Of a DNA stretch of 64,000 nucleotides, positions 34,000-36,491 are shown one piece after another. The stretch is from Hamadaea tsunoensis DSM 44101 (GTDB lineage: Bacteria > Actinomycetota > Actinomycetes > Mycobacteriales > Micromonosporaceae), in assembly GCF_000428945.1 (NCBI RefSeq), contig NZ_AUAX01000006.1, positions 310,001 to 374,000 of the forward strand, written 5' to 3'. Every line of letters begins with the position of its first letter. Position 1 is the first letter of the stretch. A model generated the notes under the pieces. That model made no database searches and had not been told where the DNA came from. It saw nothing but the letters and a program-made list of their open reading frames with translations. The position numbers were made by a program, and so were the translations under genes.

Positions 34000-34392
34000 T
34001 CAGATGGCGGCGCGGTGGTTGAGCGTGGCGACGGTGGAGCCGGTCAGCGTGAGCAGGCAGTCGTGCAGCCGGCCGTCGGAGTGGGCCGCGCCGATCAGGG
34101 CGTGGGCCGTCTGCTCGTCCTCGTTGAGGTACGCGCTGATGAACCGGGCGACCCAGCGGGCGTCGTAGCGAGCCTGGTCGATGCCGGGGAAGTCGAGGGA
34201 CCAGGGGCCGGACGGCTGGGCGTCGCCGGCGATGGTGCCGGCGAGACACCAGGCGACGCCGAGGGCACCGGGGACGCCGGTGGCCCCCACGACGCTGTCG
34301 ACGGTCTCGGCGACCGCCGCCCGGTCGCCGGCGATGGCCTGATCGAGCAGCAACGCCGCGTCTTCGAAGACGCGATGGGGATCCCCGGTCAC
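34000..34392 (-). CDS. hypothetical helical protein
   Basis: A 130-residue protein starting at GTG 34392 (VTGDPHRVFEDAALLL). Mostly helical, Ala-rich, with WVARFISAYLNEDEQTAHALIGAA. No signal, no motif, no family recognised. It may follow the same promoter as the toxin pair or stand alone. Confidence 0.62.
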   Translation of the reverse strand: MTGDPHRVFEDAALLLDQAIAGDRAAVAETVDSVVGATGVPGALGVAWCLAGTIAGDAQPSGPWSLDFPGIDQARYDARWVARFISAYLNEDEQTAHALIGAAHSDGRLHDCLLTLTGSTVATLNHRAAI

Positions 34393-34517
34393 ATCGGTGA
34401 GCCTACGCCGGGCTGTCAACGCAACCCGGACAGGCGCATCCTTCCCGGCCACTTCCCGACAGATCGCGCGCACGCTAAGGTGCCGAACTAGATGATCGTT
34501 GGAGGTGTCATCCCCTC

Positions 34518-35894
34518 ATGCGCCCGTGGCCCATCGCCCGTTCGCACCGCGGGCCCATCGCCCGTTCGGTTGTGTCGGGCACGCTCGTTCTCGGTCTCCT
34601 CGCCGCCGGGCTTGCCGGCTGCGGCGGCGAACCGGCCGCGTCCGACGACAGCCGGCAGCAGCTGCGCCTCTACGGCGCCGACGGCAACATGAAGAACGCC
34701 ATCGGCGAGCCGGTCGGCAAGGCCCAGCCCGGCCTGATCTCGGGCATGAAGGGCACCACCCCGCTGACGCCGCTCACCGACGACTTCAAGGCGCGGCTGC
34801 GCGGCATCGACCCGGCCCTCAAGGACTACCCGTATGCGGGCGAGTCGTACGACGCGATCGTGATCATGGCGCTGGCGACCCAGCTGGCCCGCACGACCCG
34901 GCCCGAGATCGTCAAGCAGTACGTCGACGGCGTGACGACCGGCGGCAAGGTCTGCGCCGACGTGGCGGCCTGCCTGACCCTCGCCCGGGCGGGGCAGGAT
35001 CTCCAGTACCAGGGGATCACGGTCAAGACCGGGTTCAAGGACAGCGGCGAGCCGTCGACGACCTCGTACGGCACCCTGCACTTCTCGGCGGATAGCAAGA
35101 TCAATTCTCAGCTGACCGAGTTCGTCGGCGCGGGATCGGCCGACGCCGCCACGCACAGCGAGGGACCGGCCCCGGTGGCGGTCTCCGTCCCGGTCACCGG
35201 CGCCCCGCTGGTCATCGGCGGCCTGACCGCCATCACGGGTACCAACTCGGGCTCCAATCCGCCCAAGCGGGCCGGGGCGAAGCTGGCCCTGGCCGAGCTC
35301 AACGCGGCGGGCGGCGTACTGGGCAAGCCGATCAAGTTCCTCGACGGCGACGACGGCACCGACCCGGTCAAGGCGAAGGCCACCCTGGCGGCCGAGAAGG
35401 GCCAGGGCGCCACGATGTTCTTCGGGCCGAGCGGCTCGGGCGTCGCCAAGGAGCTCATCCCGGTCGCCGCCGCGGAGCATGTCATCCTGTTCGCGCCGTC
35501 GGCCACCTCGGCGGCGCTCAGCTCGATCAACGACGACGGCTACTTCTTCCGGGCCGCGCCGTCCGACGAGCTCCAGGCGCGCGCCCTCGCCGACGTGATC
35601 ATGCGGGACGGCCTGCGCAAACTGAGCATCCTGTACCGCAAGGACACCTACGGCGAGGGTCTCGCCCAGGGGGTCAAGGACGAGCTGATGAAGGCCGGCC
35701 TCCAGGACGCCGGGGTGCAGCTGGAGGCCTACGACGTCCCGAAGGACGCGGCCTCCCTGCAGATCCCGGACCAGGTGCACCGGATCCACGAGTTCGCGCC
35801 GGAAGGCGTACTGGTGGTGGGGCTGACGGAGTCCGCCTACGCGATCCTGGACCTAGCTGCGGGCGGGGTCGATCCGCGGGTCTCCCCCGCGTAG
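34518..35894 (+). CDS. ABC substrate-binding lipoprotein with permuted halves
   Basis: A 458-residue branched-chain amino acid type (Peripla_BP_6) binding protein. Signal peptide and lipobox LAGC (Cys35) are normal. Residues about 47-205 (QQLRLYGADGN..., GMKGTTPLTPLTDDFKARL, YAGESYDAIVIMALA, GGKVCADVAACLTL, YGTLHF) correspond to the C-terminal half of the family. A linker rich in Ala/Pro/Val follows, and residues about 230-458 (PLVIGGLTAITGTNSGSN..., RAGAKLALAELNAAGGVLGKPI, GPSGSGVAKELIPVAAAE, YFFRAAPSDELQ, EGVLVVGLTESAYAIL) are the usual N-terminal half. The order is swapped. No permease or ATPase gene adjoins. It ends by overlapping a convergent TetR gene by 42 bp. Confidence 0.85.
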   Translation: MRPWPIARSHRGPIARSVVSGTLVLGLLAAGLAGCGGEPAASDDSRQQLRLYGADGNMKNAIGEPVGKAQPGLISGMKGTTPLTPLTDDFKARLRGIDPALKDYPYAGESYDAIVIMALATQLARTTRPEIVKQYVDGVTTGGKVCADVAACLTLARAGQDLQYQGITVKTGFKDSGEPSTTSYGTLHFSADSKINSQLTEFVGAGSADAATHSEGPAPVAVSVPVTGAPLVIGGLTAITGTNSGSNPPKRAGAKLALAELNAAGGVLGKPIKFLDGDDGTDPVKAKATLAAEKGQGATMFFGPSGSGVAKELIPVAAAEHVILFAPSATSAALSSINDDGYFFRAAPSDELQARALADVIMRDGLRKLSILYRKDTYGEGLAQGVKDELMKAGLQDAGVQLEAYDVPKDAASLQIPDQVHRIHEFAPEGVLVVGLTESAYAILDLAAGGVDPRVSPA

Positions 35895-36491
35895 CCCCGC
35901 CGTCAGCGCCGCGAAGGCCGCCCGCCGCAGGTCGCCCAGGTCGTCCTGGCCGTCACTGGCCAGCCACGCCACCAGCGCCGTGTCCCAGGCCCCGCTCGTG
36001 GCCGCCGCGACCAGCTGCGGATACAGGTCGGTCACCACCATTCCCGGCGTACGCGCGGCCGCGAACTCGGCGACCACACCGGCCAGATCCCTGTTCAGCA
36101 GCAGGTACGTGCCGAGCAGGCCGGGCTGCGTCCGCAGGAGCCGCAGGCGTTCCAGGATCTGCCGGCGGTCCTCGGGATCGGCCAGGTCGAGCCCTTCCAG
36201 CACGGTGTCGATCGAGTCGAGGACCGGTTCGCCCTCGGGCCGCCCCCACAGCGCCGTACGCAGCGCGGCGATCCGGCCCTGGGCCACGTCGCCGAGCAGG
36301 ATGTGCTGTTTCGACGCGAAGTACCGGAAGAAGGTGCGCTCGGCGACCCCGGCGGCCTCGGCGATCTCCTCGACGGTGGTCCCCTCGTAGCCGCGCTCGG
36401 CGAACAGGCGCAGGGCGGCCTCCTCCAGCGCCTGGCGGGTCGCCAGCTTCTTGCGGATGCGCCGGTTGCCACCCCAGTCCGCGGAGGTCAT
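35853..36491 (-). CDS. TetR-family transcriptional regulator
   Basis: A 212-residue regulator: TRQALEEAALRLFAERGYEGTTVEEIAEAAGVAERTFFRYFASKQHIL is the helix-turn-helix at residues 18-65. The C-terminal ligand domain is of the actinobacterial type with LRTQPGLLGTYLLLNRDL. Convergent with, and overlapping by 42 bp, the substrate-binding protein. Confidence 0.93.
   Translation of the reverse strand: MTSADWGGNRRIRKKLATRQALEEAALRLFAERGYEGTTVEEIAEAAGVAERTFFRYFASKQHILLGDVAQGRIAALRTALWGRPEGEPVLDSIDTVLEGLDLADPEDRRQILERLRLLRTQPGLLGTYLLLNRDLAGVVAEFAAARTPGMVVTDLYPQLVAAATSGAWDTALVAWLASDGQDDLGDLRRAAFAALTAGLRGGDPRIDPARS

Follow-up and report, generated by a model that had tools for sequence, protein, structure and literature searches.

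A circularly permuted LIV-type substrate-binding lipoprotein of Hamadaea tsunoensis and the probable recurrence of its permutation in Actinomycetota

An open reading frame (ORF) of Hamadaea tsunoensis DSM 44101 encodes what looks like a Leu/Ile/Val (LIV)-type substrate-binding protein (SBP) whose two halves stand in swapped order. Is this a genuine circular permutation, what could such a protein do, and how did it arise? The gene occupies 34518-35894 of the window, by which we mean the whole 64,000-nucleotide stretch that was analysed, and it encodes a lipoprotein of 458 residues whose layout was derived from the ORF, Pfam, tblastn and MAFFT. Its parts, all on the plus strand, follow one another as the original prediction had claimed: a signal peptide and lipobox, then the C-terminal half of the fold, then the N-terminal half. 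The signal peptide and its lipobox LAGC (34518-34622) end with C35. A short tether (34623-34658) leads from this cysteine, presumably lipid-modified, to the new N terminus. The C-terminal half (residues 48-206; 34659-35135), delimited by tblastn and MAFFT against normal-order relatives, comes first in the chain and starts at the strand LRLYG (DSSP strand 50-53). Close to its start is D55 (34680-34682) of the YGxDGN motif, which is invariant in clades A1 and A2 described below. With the alignment shifted by three residues by eye, we take D55 to be the probable counterpart of the ligand-binding Glu226 of the E. coli leucine/LIV-binding protein. A linker (residues 207-228; 35136-35201), placed by the alignments and an AF2 model, bridges the former C and N termini, and the N-terminal half (residues 229-454; 35202-35879), identified by Pfam and by PDB sequence and fold matches, comes second. 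The last four residues and the stop codon (35880-35894) put the new C terminus right after the helix SAYAILDLAA, in the sequence as in the model.

Family models recognize one half of this protein. Pfam PF13458 (Peripla_BP_6) matches with 100.1 bits against a cut-off of 31.7 (E = 2.6e-28) and covers residues 231-447 only, which correspond to positions 2-211 of the 343 in the profile. On its own, the first half yields only a sub-threshold match to ANF_receptor (E = 0.029, profile 234-339), so the C-terminal half could not be proved from family models, and the proof comes from homologues in normal order. In three such relatives found by tblastn (L034, L035 and L036), the C-terminal half starts 1-5 codons after the end of the N-terminal half. 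Aligned separately to these relatives, a check proposed at the outset, the halves of the window protein fall in reversed order, with identities of 32-33% for the N-terminal half and 36-37% for the C-terminal half (E = 4e-20 to 3e-26). In pairwise alignment, residues 226-454 and 46-207 tile L034, itself a one-piece Peripla_BP_6 match (profile 2-338), with just a loop between them, which bears out the claim that the halves are complementary and the protein complete. The best PDB sequence matches are Leu/Ile/Val-type binding proteins, and their best stretch lies in the second half. Both Peripla_BP_6 halves are present, the C-terminal one recognized through normal-order relatives and not through Pfam; the C-terminal half precedes the N-terminal half, against the canonical order of the family; and the N- and C-terminal parts show the reciprocal homology to normal-order relatives, over essentially the whole length, that defines a circular permutant. 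By sequence comparison, the ORF is confirmed as a true circular permutation of a LIV-type (Peripla_BP_6) SBP, with nearly nothing lost. Because the Pfam model matches only one half, the swapped order is easily missed, which leaves a gap in annotation.

Structure prediction, likewise foreseen as a check, locates the cut. The AF2 model, made with a 40-sequence alignment, is confident over the body (pLDDT 89.1, pTM 0.86), with values below 50 at residues 6-34 and 36-45. In the model, strand 50-53 (RLYG) opens the body and helix 439-448 comes just before its end, and the cut is the helix-to-strand loop between the two. It falls at 263-268 in L034 numbering and maps by eye to about residues 219-222 of the E. 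coli leucine-binding protein. Going by the usual lobe boundaries of such proteins, we take this to be an outer loop of the C-terminal lobe and not the hinge. The original prediction had placed the new termini in the hinge, which is not supported; judging from the model, it is the old termini, joined by the linker of about 22 residues, that would lie near the hinge. The best Foldseek match, 4n0q, aligns over 223 columns (TMt 0.57, rmsd 2.2). Foldseek respects chain order, and a partial alignment of this kind is what a misplaced half should produce. The model is consistent with a complete two-lobed clamp.

Outside the Micromonosporaceae, the permuted gene is mostly found next to livHMGF. Genes of the liv type adjoin it in 11 of 12 loci of family f16, in all three of f39, in all 13 of f41 and in six of seven of f49, where the exception (L311) is a locus cut off by its contig end; in G077, livG and livF adjoin it. 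All four liv genes accompany six of the seven genes of a second permuted form (type B, below), the seventh (L322) having livH and a weak livF-like match only. The permuted gene is mostly convergent with livF, which is the position of the normal gene in normal lineages; at the two loci of clade B2 (L235 and L322), livH is nearest instead. Since it holds the normal gene's place at livHMGF, the permuted gene most likely encodes the working binding protein of the operon. C35, the YGxDGN motif with D55, S307, T330 and E438 do not vary among 21 aligned homologues, and we take D55, S307 and T330 to be probable counterparts of ligand-binding residues in the E. coli LIV-type proteins. The ligand would accordingly be sought among amino acids or similar small molecules.

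The Micromonosporaceae, including the genome studied here, are different: their permuted gene is an orphan. No liv gene lies near it in any of 76 loci of the family, within flanks of up to about 8 kb. We looked for a close liv operon in the H. tsunoensis genome and found none; the window's contig has no LivH-like match, and other contigs of this genome hold 11 weak ones, at 34% identity or less. Divergent from the binding-protein gene, at 34003-34473 on the minus strand, is a gene for a conserved 157-residue protein with no Pfam match. Of 81 loci compared, 57 have a homologue of it; position was evaluated in 52, and in 51 of these the homologue is divergent and no more than 1 kb away. On the other side lies a gene for a TetR family regulator (TetR_N, TetR_C_14; 35853-36491, minus strand), which shares 42 bases with the binding-protein gene, 3' end on 3' end, and homologues of this regulator occur in 8 of the 81 compared loci only. 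Elsewhere, one f16 genome carries a second type A copy (L181, G148:C10) with no liv genes found nearby, perhaps a second case of departure from the operon.

The orphan protein may supply another LIV-type transporter, or it may be no transport SBP at all, but a receptor or scavenger lipoprotein that works with some other partner. The latter is a serious possibility, if not the one we favor. It would fit the lack of liv genes at all Micromonosporaceae loci and the conserved divergent gene; against it, the motif residues stay invariant, and LIV-type permeases exist elsewhere in the same genome.

How widely is the permuted order distributed? Collinear full-length matches occur in 18 of 41 genomes (H. 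tsunoensis and 40 relatives), at identities of 69-72% within the genus, 42-54% within the family and 41% in one genome of another family. Collinear homologues at 69-72% (three same-genus relatives), 54% (one same-family relative) and 41-48% (the remaining full-length matches) are far beyond chance. Across the order, 135 of 397 genomes have full-length collinear matches, 68 of them in the window's family (f1), 66 in f16 and one in f13. Ten further f1 genomes give weaker matches only (about 1e-57 to 1e-60), as normal-order genes do, and the one that was read (G007) is in normal order. The order was permuted in 110 of 110 loci (the best 80 of 232 relatives and the best 30 loci), which is not a frequency, as loci were picked by similarity to a permuted query. 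An unpermuted paralogue, which the original prediction suggested looking for, has no close representative in the H. tsunoensis genome, where three weak homologues share 24-30% identity; two relatives (G009 and G018) do carry both forms. Outside the order, permuted proteins occur in further families of the same class and also in different classes: in 13 of 197 genomes of f41, 9 of 148 in the order of G649 (G1477 being cut by a contig end), 5 of 198 in the class of G941 and 2 of 66 in the class of G857. Among plasmid records, 226 matched, and one place covered at least 80% of the query; in the two of these 226 in which order was read (Nonomuraea and Arthrobacter), it was normal. The homologue on the plasmid of Arthrobacter sp. 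StoSoilB13 (L332) has its N part and C half in different, overlapping frames, reflecting either a frameshifted gene or a sequence error.

We classified 239 proteins as 153 of type A, the form found in the window, 7 of type B and 79 normal; these are distinct by exact string, and a few represent one gene from two loci (e.g. L281/L307). The type B cut lies about 20 residues further on than that of type A, so that the DGN segment is at the C terminus and the body starts near LxGMKGT or GVRGT. Type B genes come from G857, G1515, G1037, G941, G999, G1162 and G1100. With both halves set in canonical order and the cut region excluded, 97 of the 239 proteins were placed on an IQ-TREE phylogeny; L229 and L280 were left out as too short, and near-duplicates were removed by identity. 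This tree requires five changes among normal, A and B, all five forced by its starred branches, and bootstrap trees require five to six. The counts are the same without two long branches (L281_1055 and L232_1368), and in a quick tree of 95 rows.

The permuted proteins fall into five clades. A1 joins Micromonosporaceae, f16 and G077 on one side of a branch whose support is only 67/7; A2 consists of f41 proteins, nested together with normal f41 genes in a clade of full support; and A3 contains f39 and f49. B1 holds G1037, G941, G999, G1162 and G1100, and B2 holds G857 and G1515, with the normal protein L210 as its sister. AU tests reject a single clade for all permuted proteins (p = 5e-45), for all of type A (8e-41) and for all of type B (2.7e-4). 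A2 and A3 as one clade are also rejected, with a p value (0.003) that is less clean because these clades were named after the tree was seen. Trees of the N-terminal or C-terminal half alone each require six switches, although the starred branches of the C-half tree force only two; A2 and A3 each appear in two places in the C-half tree, as does A1 in the N-half tree. Chimeric assembly of the halves from different sources is not supported by these trees, weak as the C-half tree is.

The tree alone cannot polarize the switches, and we take normal order as ancestral from the wider family. So read, the data make us fairly confident that in Actinomycetota a LIV-type SBP gene underwent at least five independent permutations (three at cut A, two at cut B), each event opening the same stretch of about 25 residues in the C-terminal lobe, and each in place at a working transporter operon. 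If true, this is parallel evolution of chain topology, which the original prediction had no means of seeing. It was perhaps selected, in that permutation places the membrane tether on the opposite lobe of the clamp.

Could one origin, or two (one for A and one for B), account for the same pattern, if permuted genes moved horizontally and each half then recombined with the normal genes already resident, so that they came to resemble local normal ones? A single origin of all permuted forms by descent is rejected by the AU test, and with transfer and recombination added it still seems unlikely to us. Signal peptides do give it some support. In eight of nine f49 permuted rows they match those of normal f49 genes at 19-22 of 23 positions and those of the f39 permuted genes at 9 of 23, though the bodies cluster with f39; in f81, the signal peptides of three type B genes agree with those of normal genes at 16-18 of 23 positions. 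Genes in f49 and f81 (L161, L206, L208, L209 and others) are thus mosaics at the lipobox, with a signal peptide like that of their family and a body that groups with permuted relatives elsewhere. These matches indicate that recombination probably happens at the SBP locus near the signal-peptide boundary, and transfer may have carried some permuted bodies between lineages. To explain the whole pattern, however, both halves would have had to be replaced separately in several lineages with the order kept intact. The six switches in each half tree also argue against it (for the C-terminal half with the qualification given above), and linkers differ between clades by eye.

As the route to permutation, the original prediction invoked tandem duplication followed by trimming at both ends. 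Unfused tandem copies make this plausible: two normal genes stand side by side in G700 (L189), and three in Nonomuraea, where L331 (N. gerenzanensis 4494932-4508095) holds three tandem copies in normal order. In A2, the linkers by eye still contain a C-terminal tail and an N-terminal lead that both resemble the normal ones. The fused stage of the route is what we failed to find, there being no N-C-N-C ORF and no duplicated half-domain among 331 ORFs carrying either half. In G1478 (L307:1055-3989), beside livFGMH, a fast-evolving permuted gene is followed directly by a normal-order gene, whose signal peptide equals that of the permuted genes of its genus at 22 of 23 letters.

Alternatively, the halves could once have been separate genes that fused in either order. 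Fission and fusion is named as the second main model in PMC3320104, and the Arthrobacter gene with its N part and C half in different frames would suit it. We consider this route improbable, as 35 loci contain no separate N-only or C-only ORF, 79 normal-order genes carry both halves in one ORF, and intact tandem copies (in G700, Nonomuraea and, as a permuted and a normal gene, G1478) are seen instead. Duplication and trimming is the more probable mechanism.

Selection on the gene is purifying. dN/dS is 0.061-0.105 among three same-genus relatives and 0.19-0.20 in two other pairs of Micromonosporaceae; between the window gene and its nearest compared relative, L005, it is 0.42, well above the other pairs. 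An artefact, be it a misassembly or a decaying pseudogene, has virtually no claim to belief: beyond the oddity itself, only the value of 0.42, which alone would not exclude relaxed constraint, speaks for it, whereas four same-genus assemblies (our own and three others, one a single contig) carry the identical order, 135 of the 397 genomes of the order share it, and the five other pairs give dN/dS of 0.06-0.20. These independent assemblies rule out the misassembly that the original prediction had named as a possible refutation, and purifying selection in related pairs, with conservation across genomes, rules out a pseudogene.

We therefore have good confidence that the locus encodes a functional, lipid-anchored, permuted LIV-type SBP, from a family that serves a conserved actinobacterial livHMGF operon and was permuted at least five times at two nearby cuts, probably by tandem duplication and trimming. 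In such a protein the linker would join the old N and C termini along the hinge side, and both chain ends would lie in a C-terminal-lobe loop. The fold would still be the usual two-lobed clamp, the ligand an amino acid or a small molecule of that sort, and the membrane tether would be attached to the C-terminal lobe, where normal proteins have it on the N-terminal lobe. In Micromonosporaceae, the orphan presumably has a different LIV-type transporter as its partner, or is a receptor.

Natural circular permutations tend to be regarded as rare, one-off events. In this family, permuted and normal proteins are interspersed on a single gene tree and hold the same place in the operon, two cuts are in use, and unfused tandems occur nearby. 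The interspersed pattern, the two cuts and the tandem copies make it directly testable how permutation arises, which loops tolerate it and whether it brings an advantage, for example through the lipid tether. Among the open-access papers listed on this subject, none describes a permuted LIV-type binding protein or recurrent permutation of binding proteins; those listed include work on DNA methyltransferases and general reviews.

Compared with canonical LIV/HAAT SBPs (the E. coli leucine- and LIV-binding proteins, 4n0q, 3ipc; PF13458), the window protein has homologous halves and, in sister lineages, the same role as lipoprotein SBP of livHMGF operons; it differs in the order of the halves and in the place of the membrane tether. 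The closest precedent comes from Treponema: TpMglB-2 (Tp0684), like its kin, is a type I binding protein that is circularly permuted in nature, a topology termed Type Ic / Cluster Bc (Brautigam et al., 2016; PMC4990184). According to that paper, TpMglB-2 is a lipoprotein that retains glucose binding and conformational change. Its cut lies in the N lobe, the first three strands having moved to the C terminus; the moved part shows poor similarity, so that an origin from another gene was raised, and the topology was discussed as perhaps an adaptation to anchoring. Both are permuted, bilobed type I lipoproteins, with a fourth crossing of the hinge that is described for TpMglB-2 and likely in the window protein. 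Unlike TpMglB-2, which belongs to a sugar-binding family, the window protein is of the Peripla_BP_6 family and is cut in the C lobe, going by the usual lobe boundaries. Compared by description, its cut does not match that of Type Ic / Cluster Bc, after the third N-lobe strand, and no MglB name occurs among the matches listed for it (60 by PDB sequence, 50 by fold). Furthermore, both of its halves align clearly to normal-order relatives, unlike the moved part of TpMglB-2 as reported there, and its permutation recurs. The permuted LIV-type SBP is thus new relative to TpMglB-2 in the kind of binding protein, in the cut and in recurrence.

Other permutants offer broader comparisons. DNA methyltransferases and saposin/swaposin are natural permutant families to which the model of duplication and trimming has been applied, and permutation intermediates are reported to be documented for the methyltransferases (PMC3320104). 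Unlike these, the permuted and normal LIV-type forms share one operon position and switch at least five times on one gene tree, with no fused intermediate found. Engineered permuted halves of the Thermotoga maritima ribose-binding protein show that single lobes of a type I periplasmic binding protein fold after permutation (PMC9815098); those are designed single lobes, whereas the window protein is natural and whole. Finally, a single origin has been argued for the permuted RAS-like domain (PMC2430557), which contrasts with the recurrent pattern of the LIV-type SBP.
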